Source: a gamma proteobacterium symbiont of Taylorina sp. (GTDB lineage Bacteria; Pseudomonadota; Gammaproteobacteria; GRL18). From it: a stretch of DNA of 64,000 nucleotides. Both the position numbers and the translations under genes were made by a program. The DNA lies in NCBI GenBank assembly GCA_025655455.1, contig JAHXIV010000013.1, positions 1 to 64,000 on the forward strand. The letters run 5' to 3'. The notes below the pieces were generated by a model. The model saw only the letters and a list, made by a program, of their open reading frames with translations. It had not been told where the DNA came from and made no database searches. This document shows positions 6,976-26,317 of the stretch, in pieces (position 1 is the first letter of the stretch; each line of letters begins with the position of its first letter).

Positions 6976-7731
6976 TTACCCCTCGCAGGAGCAGGCTTTC
7001 TTCAGTCCAACTTCTAACATCTTACGCCTTAAATAAGCTATTTTAGATTGCAGAGGCAATTTTTTTGGACAGACGTCCTCACAACCTAATAAGGTCATGC
7101 AGCCGAAAACACCATCTTCATCACCCACCAGCTCATAATAATCATCTCCACTGCGTTCATCTCTGGGATCCAGCTGATAGCGTGTAATTTTATTCAAACC
7201 GACAGCCCCTGCAAATTCTTCTCTCATCTGAATAGTGCCGCATCCGGCAACACAGCATCCACATTCAATACATCGATCCAGCTCATAAATTTGTTCCGCT
7301 AATTCCGGCTCCATACGTGGCTCCAGACGGTTATAATCAGCGGCTTCATTTTGATGAATCCAGGCTTCAAGCCGTTCATTCATAGCGCGCATCCAGTTGC
7401 CGGTAAACACCGATAAATCACCAATTAATTCAAACACAGGCAGTGGTGCAAGAGAAATTTCAGCTTCCATTTTTGCTGTCAGAGTACTGCAGGCTAATCC
7501 TGGTTTACCATTGATGATCATGGCACAGCTCCCGCAAATCCCGGCACGACAGACAAAATCAAATTTTAAAGAAGCGTCATGATACTGACGAATATCATTT
7601 AAAGCAATAAACAATGTCATACCGGGTGCTTCTTCAATTTCAAAGCATTCAATACGCGGTTTATCACCCACAACATGCGGATCAAAGCGTAAAATACTGA
7701 TCTTTAATAAGCGCCCTTTTTCAATAATCAT
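6976..7731 (-). CDS. frdB: Fumarate reductase iron-sulfur subunit, Wolinella type
   Basis: About 251 residues from the ATG at 7731; the frame extends to 7788 but the family N-terminus (LLKISILRFDP) begins just after 7731. The protein carries the [2Fe-2S] site CRAGICGSC...C near residue 70, the [4Fe-4S] site CIECGCCVAGCG and the [3Fe-4S] site CMTLLGCEDVCP. It closely resembles remembered Wolinella FrdB (DRCIECGCC; DGVFGCMTLL). It passes electrons between FrdA and the di-haem FrdC. Unlike Wolinella, it is not next to frdA: about 9.4 kb with a type I secretion cassette intervene, so it needs its own promoter in 7732-8428. Confidence 0.92.
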   Translation of the reverse strand: MIIEKGRLLKISILRFDPHVVGDKPRIECFEIEEAPGMTLFIALNDIRQYHDASLKFDFVCRAGICGSCAMIINGKPGLACSTLTAKMEAEISLAPLPVFELIGDLSVFTGNWMRAMNERLEAWIHQNEAADYNRLEPRMEPELAEQIYELDRCIECGCCVAGCGTIQMREEFAGAVGLNKITRYQLDPRDERSGDDYYELVGDEDGVFGCMTLLGCEDVCPKKLPLQSKIAYLRRKMLEVGLKKACSCEG

Positions 7732-7923
7732 AAAATGATACTTACCATATTTTATTAAAATCAAAGTTTTTATTATTATCACAGTCACATAATAATAATT
7801 CTACGGTTTCATCAGGGGCATCAATTAATCGGAGAAGTTATATAACCACCTGAACTGTATAATATAGGATTTTACATTATTTTATTAATAATTAACTTTT
7901 ACAATAAGCAATAAGTCATTGAT

Positions 7924-8428: not shown

Positions 8429-10132
8429 ATGAAAAATAAGCTTATTTTATCCCATTTATTGGCAGTATTTCATCGTTTTTATAAGTTGTATCTTATTGTC
8501 TATATGATTTTTGTATGTAGTACAGCCTATGGCTCTTACTTTACGCAAGAAATAACACAATTATTACAAACTCATCCGTCTTTATCATCCCAGCAATACT
8601 TAATTGAAGCCGCAGATGATGGTATTACAAAAGCAAAGTCTGGTTTTCTACCCAGCATTGATATTTTCAGTTCAATAGAGAAAGAAAAAACTAATCGATC
8701 TATTATTGGTAGTCAAAAGACGTATGATAGTAAAACAGCTGAATTAACCATTACACAAAATCTTTTTTCAGGTTATTCCGATGAAAACAAGACCAGTATT
8801 GCTGAATTGGAATCAAAAATTCAGTGGGTTATTTTTGATAAGGTTAAGCAAGATTTACTTTTATCAGCTATAAAATCATATATTAATATACTCAAACAAA
8901 CAAAACTGTTAGAAATTGCTGAAAATAACGAGTCAATTCTGGCAAGCCAACTGGCACTGGAAGAAGAACGTTTTAAACATGGCGCAGCGATAGAAGCTGA
9001 TGTACTGCAATCAAAAGTACGGCAACAATTTACCAAAGAGCGGAAAGTTTTATATTTTGAGGAATTAGAATTGGCAATTGCCAAATATATTGAAATTTTT
9101 TCTCATGCACCTGAATTAGAAAAAATGCAAAACATTAAAATACCTGAACAAAAAATACCTCAAACTTTATACGATGCCCTGGCACAAACCACAAAATCCA
9201 ATCCTGAACTCAATCAGTTCAGACTGGAAACAGAAAAAACAAAATTACAGATTTTTATTGAAAAAAGTGCATATTATCCTTCTATTAATCTTGTTGGGAA
9301 ATCTGAATGGTCTGATGGTGATGAAGGCTTTGATCGCTCAAAAAAAGATGCTTCAATTGGAATACAATTACAATGGAATTTGTTTAATGGTAAAAGAAAT
9401 AATGCCAATCTTAATATAGCAAGAAAAAACCATGCCTCAATTATTGAAGACTATATTATTGCAGAAAACAAATATAAAGAGCTGACACATTCTAATTGGA
9501 AAGAATATAATATTTCCAAGAAACGAGTTGTTATCCTTAAAAATGCAGCAGATATGTCCCGACTTTTATTTGAACAACGCAAAGAATTAAGGGCTGCTGG
9601 AGAAAATACAGCTAAAAACGTACTGGATGCCAGGAGTGAGTACTTTAATTCACAAACACGACATACATCAACAAAATATAATAATCAAATAAAGGCTGTC
9701 GAATTATTGTATGCATGTGGCTTACTAACTCCCGAATTAATCATTAGTGAGTTAAAATCGAAAACAATTGAACAGAAAAAATCAAAATATTTTCAACAAG
9801 AATCACCAAGGTTAAGCTCTTTTCCACCATTAACCGACCGTGATTGGCTGCTTCAACAATCACCAGAGAATTTTGTTATTCAGTTAATTTCAGTAAGAAA
9901 TAAAAATTCTATTGACGGACTTATAGATAAAACGAATGTGAGTGACAGATTTGCGGTTTATACGATTAAGAATAAAGGTAATGACATATATGTGATGGTT
10001 TATGGTTCTTTTTCAGATAAAAAATCTGCAAAAGAAGCCATTAAAAGTTTACCGATTAATCATAACAAATATCATCCATGGGTTAGGGAAGTCAGCATGA
10101 TTCAACATGAAATAAATAGAGGTTATAAGTAG
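8429..10132 (+). CDS. TolC-family outer-membrane channel with C-terminal SPOR domain
   Basis: The 567-residue protein has a signal peptide (cleavage likely after AYG near residue 35) and an outer-membrane efflux protein region to about residue 440. It shows the two-fold repeat of helical hairpins and strands typical of TolC/AprF/LapE (VLQSKVRQQF; NVLDARSEYFNSQ). After a polar linker, residues about 480-555 match a SPOR domain (WLLQQSPENFVIQL, then YVMVYGSFSDKKSAKEAI). SPOR domains bind denuded peptidoglycan, so the channel may be recruited to sites of cell-wall remodelling. It is the outer-membrane part of the type I exporter encoded about 3.7 kb downstream. It is convergent with the acidic repeat gene, 12 bases between stops. 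Confidence 0.88.
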   Translation: MKNKLILSHLLAVFHRFYKLYLIVYMIFVCSTAYGSYFTQEITQLLQTHPSLSSQQYLIEAADDGITKAKSGFLPSIDIFSSIEKEKTNRSIIGSQKTYDSKTAELTITQNLFSGYSDENKTSIAELESKIQWVIFDKVKQDLLLSAIKSYINILKQTKLLEIAENNESILASQLALEEERFKHGAAIEADVLQSKVRQQFTKERKVLYFEELELAIAKYIEIFSHAPELEKMQNIKIPEQKIPQTLYDALAQTTKSNPELNQFRLETEKTKLQIFIEKSAYYPSINLVGKSEWSDGDEGFDRSKKDASIGIQLQWNLFNGKRNNANLNIARKNHASIIEDYIIAENKYKELTHSNWKEYNISKKRVVILKNAADMSRLLFEQRKELRAAGENTAKNVLDARSEYFNSQTRHTSTKYNNQIKAVELLYACGLLTPELIISELKSKTIEQKKSKYFQQESPRLSSFPPLTDRDWLLQQSPENFVIQLISVRNKNSIDGLIDKTNVSDRFAVYTIKNKGNDIYVMVYGSFSDKKSAKEAIKSLPINHNKYHPWVREVSMIQHEINRGYK

Positions 10133-10144
10133 TAATTGTGGTTT

Positions 10145-13100
10145 TTATAACAAAGAGTCTTCATTGTTATAATCATCCCCCATTGGATCATCAAATACGC
10201 CTTGTTCATCATAATTAAATTCAGGTTCCATATCTTCATCTGATATTTCAGAAAATTCAAAGCCCGATATTTCCAGTTGTGCAATTTCAAATTCATCTGA
10301 GTTTTTATCGTTTTTACTGTGGCTAATGACTTTATAACCTGGGTGGTTTGTATTATTGCTAGTATTACCACCGGAATTCTCTGCATTATTATGGAACTCG
10401 GAGCCGCCGGGTGCATTTTGGTCACCATTGCCAAACCCATTATTTTCATATTTATGATGATTATCCTGTCTATCTTCATCAGCTAATGAATTCTCAAAAT
10501 CGGGGGACAACTGCTCATTGATTTCATTATCGTTTTTACCACCTGGATGTGAACCCTTACCATTACCACCGGCATTCTCAGCATTGTTATTAAATTCAGA
10601 ACCACCTGGCGCATCCTGATCACCATTGCCAAACCCATTATTTTCATATTTATGATCAGATATATCTATATTGACCGGAGTGGAGGAATCATCATCATGA
10701 TTATCTTCTTTAAAGTCATCAAGAATGGTATCGTTATTGCTATCCTTAATGGTGTTAAATGTATTGTCTATGTTATTGTTAACATCAGGATCTATGTCTG
10801 ATAATAATTCAAGCACATCATCACTGGTCATTAGTGCTGTTATATCGAGTTCATCATCAGAACCATCAATTGAATCTATTTTTTCTTCATATTGAACATC
10901 TGTTATTGTAGAGTCGAACTTAATATCTTCAATAACAGGTTCAGTAGAAGAGTTTGATTCACTGCTATCTTTATTATCAGCAGGTGTTCGCTGTTCAGGT
11001 TTCTCTTCAGTCGTTAAGCTGTCTTCTAATTCGATAGTAAGCTCTGATTCATTATCACTTTTTTTATTTTCACTGGGCTCTGATTCAATTTCAGTTTCTG
11101 TAGTGATGACTTCTATTGTTTCGATATTAATAACACGTTCAAACTTACCACCAGAGCAGGAATCATAGCCTCCTGGACACATGATCAGGTATTCACCCTC
11201 ATCCAGGATTTCATGGTCATTGTCTTTAATCGGTTCTGGTGCTACAGCAATTTCTTCATCGACTACTTCATTGATCACTTCAGTCGCTTGTTCTTCTGAT
11301 TCTTTTTCAGGAGAAGTGTCTTCCACCAATTCCGATTTATTTTCAGGATTAACAATAAAGTCTTCTTTTTCCTGTTCAATTATTGTTTCAGGAATATCAG
11401 GTTCAAGTTCAGGTTTTTTATCTTCAATATCCAGCTTTTCATCGACATTATCTATATCCGATTTTTCCTGAGCTATCTCAACAATTGTTTCTGTCTCATC
11501 CTCTTTTTCTGCTGGAACAGTTTCAACAACTTCAATATCAGCTTTTAATGGCTTTTCATAGCTAACGGTATCAACAGGTTCATTGGTATTATCTGCACCA
11601 ATAATTATTTCCTGATGAATAACCTTAACAGTCTCAATAGTAGTAACAGACTCTTCTGTGGAACCAAGGCAATTAAAATCTGAAATTATTTTATCCCTAA
11701 TGATATCATCAGATTCAACAGATTCTTCGAACTCACTAATCATTTCAACAGTATCAGCTATTTCATTCTCAGGTGCCTGTTCGTCTTCAGTCTCAATACT
11801 CTCATCAGATTCAACAGCTTCTTCGAACTCACTAATCACTTCAACAGTATCAACTATTTCGTTCTCAGTTTCCTGTTTTATCTCAGTCTCAATATTCGCA
11901 TCGGATTCAACAACTTCTTCAATCTCACTAATCACTTCAACAGTATCAACTATTTCGTTCTTTATCTCCTCTTCAATTTCATTGATATTAGATGTTATGG
12001 TATCACTTAATTCTTCTGATTTGCCATCATGAAGAGGATGATATCCTCCAGCATTTCCAATATCTTTATCATTACCCTGATTTCCTGAGGTTCCTGAAAT
12101 CAGGTTATTATTTTCATCCGATTTTCCGGCACCAGCAGCAGGATTAAAAGAAGCATTATCCTGTATATCTGTTTTAATGGTCTCATGCTTATTATCTGAC
12201 TGAGGAAGCTTTTCAGATAATTCCACCTTGATTTTTTCAGCATTGGGTATTTCAGAGCCAATGATGCCGACATTGGCTTCCTGATGTTCATTTAACTCAT
12301 TATTATTAGACTGACCACCAGCATTACCAACAAATTTATCATTACCCTGATTTCCTGAGGTTCCTGAAATCAGGTTATCATTTTCATCCGACTTTCCAGC
12401 ACCAGCAGCAGGATTAAAAGAAACATTGTCCTGGATATCTGCTTTAATGGTCTCATGGTTATTATTTGACTGAGAAAGCTTTTCAGATAATTTCACCGTG
12501 ATTTTTTCAGCATTTGGCATTTCAGCCTCAATGATGCTGGTAGTGGCTTCCTGATGAGCATTTAACTCATTATTTTTGGAGTGACCGACAGCATTACCAA
12601 CAGGTTTATCATTATTCTGACTTTCAACACTACTAGATTTTTCATTGTTATTTTCATCAGACCTGCCTGTTTCTTCTGTTTTACTGCTATCATAAATTTT
12701 TTGCGTGTGTTCATTTTTGTCAGTACTTGTTTGCTTTATGCTCTCTGTATAGGCATCTGATTGGCGGTTATAGTTTGATTCATCATTATCCTGATTGATT
12801 TTTTCATTTTTATTTTTTGCTTCAGTTTCAGACTTTGTCTCAAGCTTTGTGTACATTGAAGACATTGAGATATGGGCAGATTCATAGCCCGCACCTGGCT
12901 CTGTTTCATTGATTCTTCTATTACCTTTTGTGATAATTGTTTCTTTATCACTTTTATTTACATCAGTTTTTTTAGTATCTGCAGCAAAATCAGATTTGAA
13001 CAGTGTTTTGTCTATTGTTGCCTCATTATCATCTTTGCTGTTAGGGTTAAAATGATCACTATTTCCATCAGCATTACCAACAAATTTTAAGTTGTTTCCC

Positions 13101-13426
13101 TGATTGCCTCCTGAACCGGAAACAACATTATCATTTTCATCAGATTTACCTGCACCAGCAGCTATACCTTCTCCTTCTCCTGGTAATAAAACGCTAGAGA
13201 ACAAATCATCATTATTTTGGCTTTGTAGATTTATGGTAGATTTAACATTTTTTTGTTGTAATAATTCATTATCAGATAAACGGTTTTCAAAAACCTGAGT
13301 GGGGTTTAGAATATCAGGATGTTTATGAGGGTCATCATCCCTTATGATGTCAAATTTATCAAACTTAATCCTGTTAGAATCATCAAATTTGTCTTGTTTA
13401 TAATTATCAATGTTTCTTTTGGCCAC
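10145..13426 (-). CDS. Very acidic repeat protein, probable type I secretion substrate
   Basis: 1093 residues, begun at a GTG preceded by AGGAG. No signal peptide and no membrane helix; extremely rich in Asp, Glu, Asn and Ser. Three repeat types occur in order: Gly/Asn blocks with GAGKSDEN...SGNQGN (starting near residues 91, 337 and 426); three copies of an acidic unit with DTVEVISEFEE (about 484-570); and two copies of KYENNGFGNGDQ.APGGS...NNAENAGG (about 925-1015), a motif I associate with large calcium-binding and type I-secreted proteins. The C-terminus is acidic with hydrophobic residues (EFEIAQLEISGFEFSE), as in type I secretion signals. No RTX nonapeptide run is seen. Function unknown; perhaps an adhesin or extracellular matrix protein. 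Confidence 0.7.
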   Translation of the reverse strand: MAKRNIDNYKQDKFDDSNRIKFDKFDIIRDDDPHKHPDILNPTQVFENRLSDNELLQQKNVKSTINLQSQNNDDLFSSVLLPGEGEGIAAGAGKSDENDNVVSGSGGNQGNNLKFVGNADGNSDHFNPNSKDDNEATIDKTLFKSDFAADTKKTDVNKSDKETIITKGNRRINETEPGAGYESAHISMSSMYTKLETKSETEAKNKNEKINQDNDESNYNRQSDAYTESIKQTSTDKNEHTQKIYDSSKTEETGRSDENNNEKSSSVESQNNDKPVGNAVGHSKNNELNAHQEATTSIIEAEMPNAEKITVKLSEKLSQSNNNHETIKADIQDNVSFNPAAGAGKSDENDNLISGTSGNQGNDKFVGNAGGQSNNNELNEHQEANVGIIGSEIPNAEKIKVELSEKLPQSDNKHETIKTDIQDNASFNPAAGAGKSDENNNLISGTSGNQGNDKDIGNAGGYHPLHDGKSEELSDTITSNINEIEEEIKNEIVDTVEVISEIEEVVESDANIETEIKQETENEIVDTVEVISEFEEAVESDESIETEDEQAPENEIADTVEMISEFEESVESDDIIRDKIISDFNCLGSTEESVTTIETVKVIHQEIIIGADNTNEPVDTVSYEKPLKADIEVVETVPAEKEDETETIVEIAQEKSDIDNVDEKLDIEDKKPELEPDIPETIIEQEKEDFIVNPENKSELVEDTSPEKESEEQATEVINEVVDEEIAVAPEPIKDNDHEILDEGEYLIMCPGGYDSCSGGKFERVINIETIEVITTETEIESEPSENKKSDNESELTIELEDSLTTEEKPEQRTPADNKDSSESNSSTEPVIEDIKFDSTITDVQYEEKIDSIDGSDDELDITALMTSDDVLELLSDIDPDVNNNIDNTFNTIKDSNNDTILDDFKEDNHDDDSSTPVNIDISDHKYENNGFGNGDQDAPGGSEFNNNAENAGGNGKGSHPGGKNDNEINEQLSPDFENSLADEDRQDNHHKYENNGFGNGDQNAPGGSEFHNNAENSGGNTSNNTNHPGYKVISHSKNDKNSDEFEIAQLEISGFEFSEISDEDMEPEFNYDEQGVFDDPMGDDYNNEDSLL

Positions 13427-13498
13427 CTCAATATACTCCTAGTGTTTCATTAGTAAATAATATTTAACTTGCCCTTTTATGCTAAAGATTCACCTAAA

Positions 13499-13684
13499 AT
13501 GACTTATTTTGATGACTTGATGCAGAATCTGCAAAACTTGCGAATTCATATTTTATTGTCAATAATGTATATGATTATCGCAATTGTCTTTACTAACTTA
13601 ATAATAACTCTGGTTCAATGTGAAATTGAACAACACATTGATATCCATTTGACAGCTCTTGAGCTTGATACTAGCATACATTAA
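13499..13684 (+). CDS. Possible small single-span membrane protein
   Basis: 61 residues from the ATG at 13499 (a TTG at 13469 would add ten). One strong hydrophobic segment (about residues 17-40, LLSIMYMIIAIVFTNLII) is flanked by polar ends. It lies alone between the divergent cargo and ABC-transporter genes. There is no clear ribosome site and no family I recognise, so it may be a chance frame in promoter DNA. Confidence 0.3.
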   Translation: MTYFDDLMQNLQNLRIHILLSIMYMIIAIVFTNLIITLVQCEIEQHIDIHLTALELDTSIH

Positions 13685-13802
13685 AAATTTTTCTGTTAAA
13701 CTGATCACATTTTTTTAATTAATGTAATTACTTATCACTGATAAGATAACTTCACTTTTGTTTTGAGTAAGAATACTTATAAATCATGATAAACAGGGTT
13801 AA

Positions 13803-15599
13803 ATGAAACGACATAACAACAAAACACTTAACAAGAATCAGATAGAGTTTGCAGATATCATCCTTCAGGCAAAGCCTGCCTTTCTGGCAGTTGCATTGTT
13901 CAGTCTGTTTTTTAATCTGTTAATGTTAACAACTCCTCTTTATATGCTGCAGGTTTTTGATCGTGTTTTATCCAGTCATAGCCACAACACATTGCTATGG
14001 CTGACAGTTATGGCTATTATTGCGTTTATTTTTATGTCACTTCTGGACGTGATACGAAATCGAATATTGGGTGGTATTGGTATTTGGCTTGATCGCTCTT
14101 TGGGTACTATTCTGGTTCGTTCCAGTTTACATAAAGCGGCTGTACATACTTCACGAGGACTACCATCCAGCAGTCTGCGTGATTTATCAATGATCAGAAA
14201 TTTTCTGAGCGGTACCGGCACGTTGGCTCTCATTGATTCACCCTGGACACCTCTTTTTGTCATCATTATTTTTCTACTACATCCCTGGCTAGGGATGTTA
14301 ACCTTAATGGGAATATTAACACTTATTTTATTGACGATATTTGGCGAATTAAATGCACGTAAGCGTTTGAACCAAAGTAGTTCGAAATTATCCCAGCTTT
14401 ATGCGACCATCGATTCGGCAGCCGATACTGCTGATGCCCTGGTCAGTATGGGAGCACTTGAGCGTATTATTTCTCAGTGGAAAAAAAAGAACCATGTATT
14501 ACTGAATAATACACAACAAGTGAATGGAAAGTTGGCTTCAGCTGTTGCTGTTGGGAAATTTGTTCGCTTAAGTTTACAAATATTAATAATGGCAGTGGGT
14601 GCTTTATTGGTTATTAATGAAGAACTGACACCAGGAGGTATGTTAGCTTCCTCAATTTTATTAACCAGAGCGTTGGCACCGATTGAGCAACTCATTGGTG
14701 CCTGGCGTGCTTTTGTTGGTAGTCGTGAAGCCATAACTCGTATTGTCAAACAGCTTAATATGGTACAGGAACACCATCGAAACGTTGAAATGCCAAAACC
14801 TCAAGGATATTTTGAAGCGAATAAAATATCATTTGCTCTACCATCAGAGCAGCGTTTTTTATTTAGAGACATTTCATTTAAGCTTAAACCTGGAGAAGTG
14901 CTGGGAATAGTGGGTCCTTCCGGTACCGGAAAAAGTACTCTTGCAAGGATTTTAGTTGGTTTAATTAGCCCTACCACAGGTCATGCCAGAGTCGATGGTA
15001 GTGATATTGCTCATTGGTCACTGGATAAAATGGGACAGTACATTGGTTATCTGCCACAGGGATTTGAATTGTTTGATGGAACAATTAGACAAAATATCTC
15101 ACGATTCAGTGATTGTGCTATTGAAGATGTGATTCATATTTCAAAATTAGCAGGTATTCATGATTTTATTGTACGCTTACCAAAGGGCTATGAAACAAAA
15201 ATCATCAAAAACAGTGTATTTCTATCAGGAGGACAGCAACAACGCATTGCATTGGCAAGAGCAATATTTGGCTATCCTTCAATCATAGTGATGGATGAGC
15301 CCAATGCAAACCTTGACCCTTCTGGTGAAAAAGCCTTGTTAAAAGCAATCGACATACTCAAACGCAAAGGTAAAACCATTATCTTAATCGCACACCGTTC
15401 TAATATTCTACGCAGTGCTGATCAATTATTGATGATGAATCATCAGGGTGGAAAACTTCTGACCAGGAAGAATACCGCAGAGCAGATCGATCAGACGCTG
15501 GGGGTATCCTATCAATACATACAAAATATTATAAAAGATATAGCATTGACTGAGGCTGATAATAGCAATAAGTCTCAAAGGTCGGGACATCATGAGTAA
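13803..15599 (+). CDS. Type I secretion ABC permease/ATPase, PrtD/AprD type
   Basis: The 598-residue half-transporter has an N-terminal membrane domain (about residues 20-320, with TTPLYMLQVFDRVLSSHS typical of the PrtD/HasD group) and a C-terminal ATPase: Walker A GPSGTGKST, signature LSGGQQQRIALARA, Walker B IIVMDEP and switch His in AHRS. It lacks an N-terminal C39 peptidase or C39-like domain, so cargo is expected to be exported via a C-terminal signal without leader cleavage. AGGG precedes the ATG. Its last eight bases overlap the adaptor gene. It energises export together with the adjacent adaptor and the TolC-SPOR channel. Confidence 0.93.
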   Translation: MKRHNNKTLNKNQIEFADIILQAKPAFLAVALFSLFFNLLMLTTPLYMLQVFDRVLSSHSHNTLLWLTVMAIIAFIFMSLLDVIRNRILGGIGIWLDRSLGTILVRSSLHKAAVHTSRGLPSSSLRDLSMIRNFLSGTGTLALIDSPWTPLFVIIIFLLHPWLGMLTLMGILTLILLTIFGELNARKRLNQSSSKLSQLYATIDSAADTADALVSMGALERIISQWKKKNHVLLNNTQQVNGKLASAVAVGKFVRLSLQILIMAVGALLVINEELTPGGMLASSILLTRALAPIEQLIGAWRAFVGSREAITRIVKQLNMVQEHHRNVEMPKPQGYFEANKISFALPSEQRFLFRDISFKLKPGEVLGIVGPSGTGKSTLARILVGLISPTTGHARVDGSDIAHWSLDKMGQYIGYLPQGFELFDGTIRQNISRFSDCAIEDVIHISKLAGIHDFIVRLPKGYETKIIKNSVFLSGGQQQRIALARAIFGYPSIIVMDEPNANLDPSGEKALLKAIDILKRKGKTIILIAHRSNILRSADQLLMMNHQGGKLLTRKNTAEQIDQTLGVSYQYIQNIIKDIALTEADNSNKSQRSGHHE

Positions 15600-16899
15600 T
15601 GAAATCATAGAACAGATTGGAAAACCTGATGTAAATAACTGGATTCTCGCCGGCTTTGCAGTATTATTGTTTTTTCTCTTAGTTTTAGTAGGTTGGGCCG
15701 GCTTTACCACCATTGATGCAGCCACTATTACTCAAGGCTCAATTACTATAAAAGACAAGCATAAAAAAATCCAGCATCTGGAAGGAGGAATTGCTAGTGA
15801 AATTTATGTTAAGGAGCACAGTGAAGTAAAAAAAGGGCAAATCTTAATGACCTTAAATCAGACCAAAGCCCGGGCATTACTCGATCTGGTAACAAATCAA
15901 TATCTCACTGCTTTAGCCCTGGAAGCAAGATTAATGGCTGAGAAAAAAGCACAAAGTAATATAAAATGGCCTGAAACATTGGATCAAAACCACCCTCAAG
16001 CACAAGTTGCCATGGAGGAACAGGAAGGTATCTTTGTAGAACGATTAACAACGCATACAGGACAAATAAAATTACTGGAAAATAAAGTACGTCAAACTAA
16101 AAAAGCCTTTGGTGGTACGAAAAAACAATATAATTCATTAAACAAACAATATCGCTTAATTCTCAGAGAAGTAGAAAATGCACGCATACTCACTCGCAAG
16201 AAATTGGCGACAAAACAAAAATTAATGGGGCTCGAGCGTGAAGCACTTCAAATTGACGAACGTTTACGTTCTTTGGAAACACACATTTCAACTTATCAAT
16301 ATGAAATTGATGACGGTAACCTGAAAATATCTAATCTCAAAAATAAACACCATAATGAAATTGTGGAACTACAGCACAAAGCTCGACTTAATCTATCTGA
16401 TCTGACACAAAAACTTAAAGCGGCCCAGGATGTCCTGGAACGAACCAAAATCATAGCCCCCCAAAAAGGCATCGTTATCAACTTGGCTATTACTACACTG
16501 CGTAGTGTGATCAAGCCGGGTGAAACTATCATGGAAATTGTTCCAACCGATGCAACTTATATTATTGAAACACGAATTGATCCCAAAGATATTGATGTCG
16601 TGAAAAAGGGAGCAAAGACACAGATCCGTTTAACATCCTATAAACAACGGATTACACCAACTCTTTATGGAACTGTGCTTCATGTCTCGGCTGACACATT
16701 GTTTGACAAAAAGACAGGTGATAAGTATTACAGTGTCATTATTGAAATTGATAGCATTTCATTAAAAAAATACCCAGGAATTAATCTTTATCCAGGTATG
16801 CCTGCTGATGTCATGATCATTTCAGATTCCCGAACTGTTATTCAATACCTTTTTCAACCTGTATTTGAAAGTTTTAACCAGGCATTTAGAGAAAAATAA
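15592..16899 (+). CDS. Type I secretion membrane-fusion adaptor, PrtE/HlyD type
   Basis: 435 residues: a short cytoplasmic N-terminus, one membrane helix (about 18-38), the first half of a lipoyl/barrel-sandwich domain (KHKKIQHLEGGIASEIYV), a long coiled-coil hairpin (about 95-290), the second half (KIIAPQKGIVINL) and a beta-barrel domain (IVPTDATYIIETRIDPKDID). These are family hallmarks of type I HlyD adaptors. It bridges the ABC exporter to the outer-membrane channel. It overlaps the ABC gene by eight bases, showing translational coupling. Confidence 0.93.
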   Translation: MSNEIIEQIGKPDVNNWILAGFAVLLFFLLVLVGWAGFTTIDAATITQGSITIKDKHKKIQHLEGGIASEIYVKEHSEVKKGQILMTLNQTKARALLDLVTNQYLTALALEARLMAEKKAQSNIKWPETLDQNHPQAQVAMEEQEGIFVERLTTHTGQIKLLENKVRQTKKAFGGTKKQYNSLNKQYRLILREVENARILTRKKLATKQKLMGLEREALQIDERLRSLETHISTYQYEIDDGNLKISNLKNKHHNEIVELQHKARLNLSDLTQKLKAAQDVLERTKIIAPQKGIVINLAITTLRSVIKPGETIMEIVPTDATYIIETRIDPKDIDVVKKGAKTQIRLTSYKQRITPTLYGTVLHVSADTLFDKKTGDKYYSVIIEIDSISLKKYPGINLYPGMPADVMIISDSRTVIQYLFQPVFESFNQAFREK

Positions 16900-17062
16900 G
16901 CGGATGATGTAAAATCTCATCAGAAAATTTCAAAACTGTACGAAAACCTTAATTGTCTCTACCTGGTGTGAGTATTAGCGATTATCATTTAACTTTATTT
17001 GCAAATCATCGTGCTAATCTTTAATAAACACCCGTTTTCAATTCCCATGATTAAATCCTTCA

Positions 17063-17143
17063 CTCTTGAGTAACAAAAAATTATCACAAATGATTTTAAG
17101 TTATTTTTATATTACTTAAAATCATTCGTGACAATTTTTTTGG
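17063..17143 (+). repeat. Dispersed repeat family R3, copy 2, overlapping the 3' end of frdA
   Basis: Starts with CTCTTGAGTAACAAAAAATT, shared with copy 1 at 6038-6018. It then forms the palindrome ATGATTTTAAGT...ACTTAAAATCAT (17091-17126). The frdA stop codon at 17122-17124 lies inside the element, so the last codons of frdA appear to be repeat-derived. The palindrome could also serve as a terminator or mRNA-stabilising hairpin for frdCA. Confidence 0.65.
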
Positions 17144-19158
17144 CTGTGGGCAATTTCAACCTCAAAACGTTCATTCAGACGCTCATTTTTAGCACGATAC
17201 TTATGCGGTAGTAATTGCTGATATGACATGAGCTGATTTTGTATTTCAAATCGATCTTTATCCACTGACTGAGAACGTATATCATCAATGAGCTTTTGTT
17301 TCAGCTGTGTTTGCGGATGATGGATGGTCATATCTTTGCCATAACCTCTAAACCCGGGTGGCAGTTCCATTTCATTGATATCAATGTCTTCATAGCCAAC
17401 AACCGGCAGAGACTGTTCTTCATCTGGCCAGCTCATAATGGTTCTTTTCAGCCATTCTTTATCATTACGTTCCGGATAATCTTCACGCGAATGTGCACCA
17501 CGGCTTTCCTTGCGTAATAAGGCACCATAAGCCACTGTTAAGGCAATTTTGATCATACGCTGAACACGATAAGCATTCACCAGTGCCGGGTTTGCAGCAG
17601 GTGATTTGGATTTCTTAACCTCAATATTTTTACTTCTCAACAGTAATTGTTGTAATTCATTTACGGCAGACTGCAAGTCAGTTTCATTGCGAAAGATACC
17701 GACTTTTTCCATTAGAATTTTCTCCATCGAGTCACGTAAATCATAGGCATCTTCACCATTTTCTTTACTGAGCAGGCGTTCTAATTTCTCCCTTTCGTGT
17801 GCAATAAAACGCTCAATAACATCACTGCTTATATCTACTTTACTTGCTTCACTTGCACAATAATCTGCAATATACTCAGCCACCAGCATACCAGCCACAA
17901 CCGTTTCACTGACAGAATTACCTCCCAGACGATTAAAGCCATGTATATCCCAGCAGGCAGCTTCACCACAAGAATAAAGACCTTTTAATGTTTGTGATTC
18001 ACCATTATATTTGGTACGTATCCCACCCATAGAATAATGCTGTGTCGGTCTTACCGGAATCCACTCTTCAGCCGGATCAATACCAAGGAAATTTTCACAG
18101 ATTTCTTTGACCTCGCGCAGATTTTTTTCTATATGCTCACGTCCCAGCAGAGTAATATCCAGCCATAGATGGTCGCCATAGCGTGACGGCACCCCCTTAC
18201 CTTTACGCATGTGTTCAATCATACGCCGCGAAACTACATCCCGCGAAGCCAGTTCCTTTTTTTCAGGCTCATAATCCGGCATAAAACGATAGCCATCGAC
18301 ATCTCTTAGTACTCCACCATCCCCTCTGCAGCCCTCAGTTGTCAATATGCCGACAGGAACAATAGCTGTAGGGTGAAATTGTATGGCTTCCATATTGCCC
18401 AAGGTAGCAACACCTGTTTCAAGCGCAATTGCCTGCCCCATCCCCTGACAAATAATGGCATTGGTTGAAACACGATAAATTCTTCCATAACCGCCACTTG
18501 CAATGGTCGTTGCCTTGGCAATATAGGCGACTAATTCACCCGTCATAAGATTTCTTACCACTGCACCATAACAACGCGACTGCTGCTCTGAATCCATAGC
18601 ATGGATCAAAGCAATCGCCTCCATTCGTTCATGCACTTCAATTTTTTGTTTTTGTGCCTCATTATCCATTGCATACAACATACTATGCCCCGTACCATCA
18701 GAGGTATAACAGGTACGCCATTTCTTAGTCCCGCCAAAATCACGGGCAGTAATTAAACCATGTGCCTCATCCGCTTCTGTAATTGTCACTTTTTCAGCAT
18801 TCATGATGGCCTGTCGCTCACCACGTTTAACACGACTCCAGGGTACCCCCCAATTAGCCAGTTCACGAATGGCTTTAGGTGCGGTATTGACAAACATGCG
18901 CACTACTTTTTGATCGGCTCCCCAGTCACTGCCTTTGATGGTATCCTCAAAATGAATATCTTCATTATCTCCTTCTCCCATAATGGAATTCGCCAGACTG
19001 GCCTGCATCCCACCTTGAGCCGCAGCAGAATGAGACCGTTTGGGCGGCACAAGACTCAGAACGATGACATCATTGCCTCGTGCTTTTACACCGGTGGCAG
19101 TACGTAAACCCGCCAGACCACCACCAATAATCAGTACATCCGTATAGATAATCTTCAT
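17122..19158 (-). CDS. frdA: Fumarate reductase flavoprotein subunit, Wolinella type
   Basis: 678 residues. FAD-binding [12 protein letters not shown] lies at the N-terminus and [14 protein letters not shown] contains the His that carries covalent FAD in this family. The active-site segments QFHPT, GCRGDGG and [12 protein letters not shown] are present, as are HYSMGGIRT and [12 protein letters not shown]. It catalyses fumarate/succinate interconversion on the membrane face with FrdB. The body is strikingly close to remembered Wolinella FrdA to the segment KYRAKNERL; the tail beyond it (about 15 residues, ending SQKNCHE) is extra and coded within a dispersed repeat. The start overlaps the frdC stop by four bases (ATGA). 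Orientation and order are frdC-frdA; frdB is detached. Confidence 0.95.
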
Positions 19159-19892
19159 GGTTGATAGCGCTCCCCAACTTTGTCAACATGCTGATAACCA
19201 ATGAACATGTAGGTACCCAAAGACATCAGGCTGATACTGGTATAAAGGATAATGCTGATGATCATCAGTTTTTTTAACTGCCTGCGAGTTTGGCCGGGCT
19301 GCTCAAATATTCCCCACTTTAGTGCCAGACGATATAAACCAATAAAAGCATGCAGGATTACACTGAGCATAAGAATTAAATAAAGCGGCCACATCCATTC
19401 ACTATAAATACGATCAGCTGAAGCATAGGGACCGATTTGATCAGGCCTGCTCATCATCATGTACAGGTGGACTGAAGCCAGAAAAAACATGATAAATCCC
19501 GTTATAACCTGATACAGCCATAATTTGCTATCTGCATGTTTAAGATAATAAGCATGACTGATAATAATACGATATTGCCGGTAGCTGGATGGAAACTTTC
19601 GCAAAGCAGTCAAAGCATGAACAATCAAAATAAGAAAAATAGCGGCTGCCAGAAAAGAAATAATACCAGGATAATATTCACCAAAAAAATAATAGCCCTC
19701 AAAAAATTTGGTGACTGTCAGCATTGCATCTTTACTGATTAAAATACTGGCTTCAAATATTAAGTGAGCCATAATAAAAATTGCTAAAACAAAGCCTGTC
19801 ACACTTTGAATCAAATCCAGTCTTGCCGGCATACAGCTGATAAAACCACAGCGATAGGCGGCAATACTTTTTTGTTCTCGATCATGTCTCAT
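19155..19892 (-). CDS. frdC: Fumarate reductase di-haem cytochrome b subunit
   Basis: 245 residues with five hydrophobic segments. Four His at 43, 92, 142 and 181 fall in [24 protein letters not shown] and [15 protein letters not shown]. These correspond, shifted by one, to the haem ligands 44, 93, 143 and 182 of Wolinella FrdC. Glu65 matches the quinol-site Glu66 of Wolinella. The residue aligned with Glu180 of Wolinella is Ile179. It anchors FrdAB in the membrane and exchanges electrons with quinone. The last bases overlap frdA. The start is taken at the first Met, before KSIAAYR. Confidence 0.93.
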
Positions 19893-24361: not shown

Positions 24362-26317
24362 ATGATTAATATTCTTAAAAAAAATATTTTATTTTTCCTT
24401 TTATTGAGCAGCCTATTCGTATACATACTATTGGCAATTACAGCACCAGCTAACGCTGCTGAATGGCCAAAGAAAAAATACACTATTATTTACAAAGTAA
24501 CTTCTCACATGTGGGATACCAAACAAAAAAAGGTTGTTCGTACCACAAAGAAAGTCCTGGATGATATACATTATGCTTTTGATGTCTGGCAAGATGCATC
24601 AAATGGAACTTTACGTTTTACTTTCGGTGGTTTTGGAAAAGCGGGCTACGATGGCTATAACCAAATCCCCTATGATGGTGATATATATCTGGTTTTAAAT
24701 GGCAGATACAACGATCATGGTGAAATGGCAAATGCTCGCTATAGTGGAACAATTCCTGATGATTACAAAAAAGCAGGCATTTTTTTTAATAAACAGTCAG
24801 GAAGCCTTCATCACAGCATCATTACACATGAAATTGGCCATGTACTTGGTCTTGAACATGCTGCCACAAATGCTTCGATCATGTATAGCGGTAAGCGATC
24901 TGGAGGAAGTACTTTAATTGATTATCTTGCAGAACAGGATGTAATCAATCTTCAATATTTATGGGATCCTGATAACAAAAACATATTTACTATGTCTGGC
25001 TCTATCCAAACCAGTCACAAACACAAAATGGCATTAGTATTTGCCGTCAATACTTTTAACGGCCATACATATTCCACACGATCTGATCACAAAGGCAATT
25101 ACACCATCGTGCTAGGACAGCCTGGTCGCTACAAAGTTGTTGCAAAATCGGTTGAAGTGTCTGCTGATTTAAAGGCACTAAAAAATAAGCAAGGCATTCC
25201 ACAAAGTGCAAGCTGGTATGTTGATCAAAGTGTAAGTTCAACGAACCCTGCGAAAGCATTGCGTACCTATATGTTTAGGAGCCGCCCTCATACAAAGGGA
25301 GCCATTATACAAATGATCGACCAGCCGGCTCCATATAAGCTGACACGTGCATTGTCATCACAGGATAATTTTGAACTGGGATATTTACATCCCGGTGATG
25401 ATGTGATGCTTGGATTGCCAGAGGTAAATAACTTAGAGTCAATCGAAAGTTTTGGCACCTCACCAGATTATCAATTTTTAGCTGTGCCCAAGAAATATAA
25501 AGGTCAGTATCAAGTCAAGTTACATATTGCTGATAATGCGACTGAAGGTGAGCGCCTGGCCATTGTGCGAGACACTCAGGGACGCAGCCACATCGGCCTT
25601 ATTGGTATACATATTTCACATCAACAAGCAAAACCAAAACTGATAAGTGGTAAGGCACTCATAGCACAATTATCTTTTGACCATAACTTAAATGACTCAG
25701 GTCCATACAAGATGCAGGGACAAGTAAATGGTGATGAGGTTTCTCTGCGCAAAGGAATCAAGGGGAATGGCCTTTTTGTCGGGGGTAGCGAAGACTGGCT
25801 TGATCTTCCACTACCAGACCAACTTTTACTCGAAAGTGGATTCACAAGTGAATTTTGGTTCCGGCGTGAAAATTGGTCTAATCCCTATATAGGGGGAGCC
25901 GGATTCCAGACATTGGTTGCTATCACATCAAGTTTTGTGCAGGATATTACAGCGGAGGGCTGCGCTCTAACTCCCCCCTGGGCTCTGGTCTCTACGGTAT
26001 CCCACCGAAATCTAAAAAACAGGGAATCAGAAACGGTACGTGCATATACTAAACCCGATATAATACAGCCAAATATATGGCTCCATGCTGCAACTGTATA
26101 TGACCCTTTTGAATCGAGTTTATCCCTCTATCTTGATGGTAAACTTGTTGAAACCATTTGGGCCGTTCCTGCACCTTTATTTTCCATACGTCATATTCGC
26201 TTTGGCACCTGGTTCAAGGCAAATCAGGCATTTCGTGGAATGTTAGATGAATTCAAGTTATACAACTATGCGCGTACGGCACAAGAGATAAAAATCGCGG
26301 CACAACCACCTGATTAA
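24362..26317 (+). CDS. Secreted matrixin-like zinc metalloprotease with LamG-like domain
   Basis: 651 residues. A signal peptide (hydrophobic core 9-28, likely cleavage after NAA near 33) is followed by a protease domain. The zinc motif HEIGHVLGLEH (156-166) and Met-turn ASIMYSG (Met174) fit the metzincin/matrixin group. A middle section (about 210-290) resembles a carboxypeptidase-regulatory-like beta-sandwich. Residues about 440-645 look like a concanavalin/LamG domain (LSFDHNLNDSGPY, then SGFTSEFWFRR and SLYLDGKLVETIW). It should act outside the cytoplasm, possibly on matrix or glycoprotein. No type I signal or sorting motif is seen. Confidence 0.85.
   Translation: MINILKKNILFFLLLSSLFVYILLAITAPANAAEWPKKKYTIIYKVTSHMWDTKQKKVVRTTKKVLDDIHYAFDVWQDASNGTLRFTFGGFGKAGYDGYNQIPYDGDIYLVLNGRYNDHGEMANARYSGTIPDDYKKAGIFFNKQSGSLHHSIITHEIGHVLGLEHAATNASIMYSGKRSGGSTLIDYLAEQDVINLQYLWDPDNKNIFTMSGSIQTSHKHKMALVFAVNTFNGHTYSTRSDHKGNYTIVLGQPGRYKVVAKSVEVSADLKALKNKQGIPQSASWYVDQSVSSTNPAKALRTYMFRSRPHTKGAIIQMIDQPAPYKLTRALSSQDNFELGYLHPGDDVMLGLPEVNNLESIESFGTSPDYQFLAVPKKYKGQYQVKLHIADNATEGERLAIVRDTQGRSHIGLIGIHISHQQAKPKLISGKALIAQLSFDHNLNDSGPYKMQGQVNGDEVSLRKGIKGNGLFVGGSEDWLDLPLPDQLLLESGFTSEFWFRRENWSNPYIGGAGFQTLVAITSSFVQDITAEGCALTPPWALVSTVSHRNLKNRESETVRAYTKPDIIQPNIWLHAATVYDPFESSLSLYLDGKLVETIWAVPAPLFSIRHIRFGTWFKANQAFRGMLDEFKLYNYARTAQEIKIAAQPPD

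Follow-up and report, generated by a model that had tools for sequence, protein, structure and literature searches.

The window analyzed here is a 64,000-nucleotide stretch of contig JAHXIV010000013.1 from a gammaproteobacterial symbiont of Taylorina sp., and it contains an approximately 9-kb type I secretion system (T1SS) cassette at 8429 to 16899. The cassette comprises a TolC-family outer-membrane channel with a C-terminal SPOR domain, an acidic repeat protein, a PrtD-type ATP-binding cassette (ABC) exporter, and an HlyD-type adaptor, and it sits between sdhB and sdhA/sdhC (Table 1). The exporter and the adaptor are encoded alongside the channel and both exceed their family cut-offs, as expected around a T1SS outer-membrane factor. 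The channel gene is an open reading frame (ORF) of 567 amino acids with an ATG start and zero internal stops. Its product was confirmed to consist of a TolC-family channel, a disordered linker, and a C-terminal SPOR domain in one chain.

Both halves of this architecture were recovered by profile, sequence, and structure searches. The channel body matched OEP in Pfam (PF02321; E 8e-43, in two stretches) and type_I_sec_TolC in NCBIfam (TIGR01844; E 7e-57 at residues 40-437); the latter score fell short of the family cut-off (193 versus 225 bits), and TIGR01844 was still the best-matching family. An AlphaFold2 model of the full-length protein, a monomer built from a 30-row alignment, had a mean predicted local distance difference test (pLDDT) score of 84. 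In a Foldseek comparison with solved structures, it resembled TolC (E 1e-20) and the DamX SPOR domain 2lfv (E 9e-5), and a phmmer search of the full-length sequence against the PDB likewise matched TolC structures and 2lfv. The pair of OEP repeats, together with the TolC fold, places the channel in the TolC family. In the tail, Pfam identified SPOR (PF05036) at residues 479-553 (E 2.3e-7; 31.5 bits against a gathering score of 21), and NCBIfam reported a DamX family match at residues 480-561 (E 1.6e-8) that, at 34 bits, lies far under the full-length cut-off. The tail alone had a sole phmmer match in the PDB, the DamX SPOR domain (E 2.6e-9). The SPOR region has pLDDT values mostly of 87-97, with a low of 73 near residues 501-510. 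Its modeled core follows the order strand-helix-strand-strand-helix-strand, as expected of SPOR with its RNP-like fold. When the tail model was searched alone, Foldseek returned 2lfv (E 3e-6) and, weakly, the SPOR domains of DedD, CwlC, and RlpA; the closest solved structure is therefore DamX SPOR by sequence and fold alike. An initial annotation, made from the sequence without database searches, had proposed this fusion, and it is borne out by the Pfam profile, the PDB sequence match, and the predicted fold, the profile search and the structure prediction both having been positive. A chance match was rejected, since profile, sequence, and fold all concur on SPOR. An assembly chimera was also rejected: the frame is single and open, it lies on a single contig, and the architecture is seen again elsewhere.

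Table 1. Features of the secretion cassette and its flanks (window coordinates)
Feature	Position	Strand	Evidence
TolC-SPOR fusion gene	8429..10132	+	intact ORF; OEP and SPOR by Pfam
TolC-family channel body, residues about 42-437	8552..9739	+	OEP; type_I_sec_TolC; AlphaFold2 model like TolC
Disordered linker, residues 448-468	9770..9832	+	pLDDT <50 (AlphaFold2)
DamX-like SPOR domain, residues about 470-565	9836..10123	+	profile, PDB sequence match, fold; Q485, S488, W551, R553 at ligand positions
Acidic repeat protein, 1093 aa, candidate cargo	10145..13426	-	isoelectric point (pI) 4.1, no Trp, repeats
T1SS ABC exporter, PrtD type	13803..15599	+	TIGR01842, 589 bits (cut-off 510)
T1SS periplasmic adaptor, HlyD type	15592..16899	+	TIGR01843, 359 bits (cut-off 209)
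sdhB	6976-7788	-	
sdhA/sdhC	17122-19892	-	
Remnant copy of sdhB start, just downstream of sdhA at the cassette edge	17017..17042	-	direct repeat D17, 88% over 26 nt; alignment

The ligand positions of the tail were compared with those of DamX, in which Q351, S354, and W416 are key for septal localization and R380 and K418 form a basic patch (PMC6895207). In the HMMER alignment, Q351, S354, and W416 correspond to Q485, S488, and W551 of the window tail, and K418 corresponds to R553. The glycan site accordingly has the conserved glutamine and basic residues, namely Q485, R553, and the lysines flanking N515, and the pI of the tail is 9.6. Because the DamX ligand positions are kept and the tail is basic, it likely binds denuded glycan. 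The two proteins differ in setting, as the window SPOR domain is carried by an outer-membrane channel and that of DamX by an inner-membrane division protein. An origin of the tail from the strain's own DamX was unsupported: the tail shares 31-32% identity with the two SPOR domains of that protein, and others reach as much as 41%. This DamX-like protein (L003:1141-3399, minus strand, on contig C2 of the window genome) combines two tandem SPOR domains with a TIG/IPT domain.

To place the fusion among related channels, 398 genomes of the phylum were sampled, long-frame channels were fetched, and their tails were scanned. These tails and three separately found examples (in G001, G043, and G151) gave 22 further TolC-SPOR proteins, or 23 with the window protein, 21 of them above the Pfam cut-off. 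A one-off oddity was consequently rejected, and the recurrence of the architecture in 22 other genes also means that the fusion is not an assembly accident. A congener, G001, encodes such a protein (L013) within an LssB-type T1SS, 26% identical to that of the window, and two other genomes from the same class, G043 and G151, have further examples. SPOR was found at E 0.01 or better in 19 of the 57 scanned tails, each confirmed by Pfam, with 2 just under the cut-off; these counts are drawn from selected long frames and are not frequencies. Fusions of TolC to OmpA-like domains were common as well (8 confirmed by Pfam and 16 in total by a profile made from those 8), and the OmpA-like tails occupy the same, C-terminal, end of related channels as SPOR. 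Among the scanned tails, 4 matched bacterial SH3 and 2 matched POTRA. Pfam SPOR was used in place of an in-house SPOR profile, whose range did not extend to the more distant tails. TIGR01844 was unsuited to tail counting, its list being swamped by housekeeping TolC, and a tail-pattern scan of the genome contigs was too tight, returning two fusions and DamX-like proteins only. Several channels of family f215 in the same phylum (L171, L176, L179, L180, L181, L182, and L188) carry two SPOR stretches in long tails. In L042, L090, and L096, of the same class, a Big_9/cadherin-like domain lies between the TolC channel and an OmpA-like tail.

Eighty TolC bodies were placed on a quick maximum-likelihood tree, on which starred branches are less reliable and gains are indistinguishable from losses. 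The tree required nine changes in the SPOR label, six or more of them forced by starred branches, and four in the OmpA label. Two cases stand out as clear. In family f171, the SPOR-tailed channel L175 was nested among OmpA-tailed channels. In the window genus, the G001 channel is SPOR-tailed; its sister L002, from the window genome, and the relatives L014, L015, and L076 are tail-less. A decayed SPOR domain 3' of the tail-less congener channels had been suggested by profile matches that crossed stop codons there. It was rejected, as a SPOR profile found nothing credible over the region downstream of these channels and most of them are directly followed by another open frame with, by inspection, a LuxR-type C terminus.

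On this evidence, the gene product is probably a T1SS outer-membrane channel that carries its own peptidoglycan anchor. The TolC body would form a trimeric exit duct, and the channel C terminus, like that of E. coli TolC, would be periplasmic and close to the equatorial zone. From there, the flexible linker of each subunit could offer a SPOR domain to the wall, which gives three such domains per duct. By binding glycan strands stripped of peptides, these domains would anchor the duct to amidase-remodeled wall, where it might also be enriched. A wall tether is favored because SPOR and OmpA-like tails, swapped on related channels, both belong to wall-binding domain families. Certain observations weigh against this reading. 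The position of DamX R380 is taken by N515 (between K514 and K516), orthologous channels in the window genus lack any tail, and the window channel forms a long branch of uncertain placement on the tree. Given the tail-less orthologues, the tail is not required for export in general, and these orthologues would also suit a neutral or decaying addition without a present role. We regard such a vestige as very improbable, given the open frame, the confidently predicted fold, the retained ligand residues, and the recurrence of the architecture in many lineages.

Where on the wall such an anchor would act is a separate issue. The initial annotation was right about the domain and the fusion, and its proposal that export is tied to division sites is weakened by the OmpA-like tails and the tail-less orthologues. 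The stem peptides to which OmpA-like domains bind are present all along the wall. Because OmpA-like tails occur on related channels and tail-less orthologues occur in the genus, anchoring to the wall in general is no less likely than targeting to the septum; septal targeting of the window channel is possible. A stronger form of the latter, in which the tail is mainly a targeting signal that sends the channel to the septum and new poles for export there, or for insertion where the wall is open, would agree with the retention of all three DamX septal-localization residues. It also has a parallel in the secretin PilQ, whose AMIN domains bring the machinery of the type IVa pilus to sites of division (PMC5285504). 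We nevertheless consider it rather unlikely, as the same position on related channels is held by OmpA-like tails, which are not known as septal markers. The tail might instead act mainly through protein contacts, in the manner of DamX and DedD with the synthases PBP1A and PBP1B, and recruit wall enzymes to make room in the sacculus for the duct. This appears improbable in view of the conserved ligand-contact residues, and shared wall binding is the simpler explanation given the OmpA-like tails found at that position.

A wall-anchored channel can be compared with several known systems. Like the TolC/T1SS outer-membrane factors (PF02321, TIGR01844), the window channel has their body, fold, and operon context with an ABC exporter and an HlyD-type adaptor; it differs in its added C-terminal linker and SPOR domain and in a divergent sequence. 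The secretin LspD of the Legionella type II secretion system (T2SS) is the sole described case of SPOR on an outer-membrane secretion pore (PMC6617341, PMC9239104). It likewise includes a SPOR-like wall-binding domain as part of the pore, but this domain is N-terminal and belongs to a T2SS secretin, whereas the window protein is a T1SS channel of the TolC type and has its SPOR domain at the C terminus. PilQ is also an outer-membrane pore with integral wall-binding modules, yet both its pore and its wall-binding domain are unrelated to those of the window channel. In E. coli, the recently found TolC partner YbjP showed no avid wall binding, which appeared weak or non-specific (PMC13082787). The TolC-YbjP pair is similar in placing an added envelope partner on TolC near the equatorial zone, but YbjP is a separate lipoprotein, whereas the wall binder of the window lies within the channel chain. 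Searches of an open-access library found no description of a TolC-SPOR or TolC-OmpA fusion, which is weak evidence, as they covered neither subscription papers nor domain databases; a 2021 review on tripartite systems and T1SS likewise makes no mention of a SPOR domain in its accessible part (PMC8277102). TolC-SPOR is apparently an uncharacterized, recurrent variant of the T1SS outer-membrane factor and not a new kind of system. This agrees with the first impression that the fusion is not a characterized type, except that the architecture proved to be common. The repeated occurrence of SPOR or other wall-binding tails on related pores suggests that bacteria anchor them to the wall by exchangeable tails. 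How tripartite exporters cross and grip peptidoglycan is still an open question, and a wall binder inside the channel chain with defined ligand residues offers a clean handle on it (Q485, the tail, and SPOR/OmpA swaps).

Some relatives suggest what such a mount might serve. LapA-type adhesins remain anchored in the TolC-like channel LapE (PMC13090378). In G001, a LapA-type retention module (NF033682; 55.6 bits against a cut-off of 50) lies at the start of the protein encoded next to the SPOR-tailed channel, so that this locus combines an LssB-type exporter with a substrate of the retained-adhesin type. The TolC-OmpA locus of G192 encodes a LapD-like receptor whose periplasmic domain is of the LapD/MoxY type. 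As the adhesin is held by the channel itself, a wall-tied channel would let it bear load, and wall anchoring of TolC channels may explain how LapA-type adhesins bear mechanical load. For the window system, a load-bearing role could be proposed by analogy; there, the exporter is of the PrtD and not the LssB type, and the neighboring ORF had no retention-module match. More broadly, and only tentatively, exchangeable C-terminal modules (SPOR, OmpA-like, and possibly SH3) might provide a wide class of T1SS-type channels with a load-bearing wall mount for exported or surface-retained proteins, with SPOR steering them to division sites.

The remainder of the cassette bears on its history and cargo. 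In seven of eight congener loci, sdhA directly adjoins sdhB, and the eighth contig starts inside sdhB. Since these genes are adjacent in congeners and a copy of the sdhB start is left at the edge, the simplest view of the cassette is that it was inserted into the sdh operon. Among congeners, the window channel had a best match of only about 24% identity, and no plasmid or viral contig relatives were found when looked for. The acidic protein, convergent to the TolC-SPOR gene, contains a 270-nt repeat and two GNGDQ[D/N]APG motifs; it had no family match in Pfam or NCBIfam and no homolog in congeners. PrtD-type exporters export M10 proteases in other bacteria. The window also encodes, at 24362-26317 on the plus strand and about 7 kb from a PrtD-type exporter, a matrixin-type (M10) metalloprotease domain joined to a laminin-G-like domain at the C terminus.
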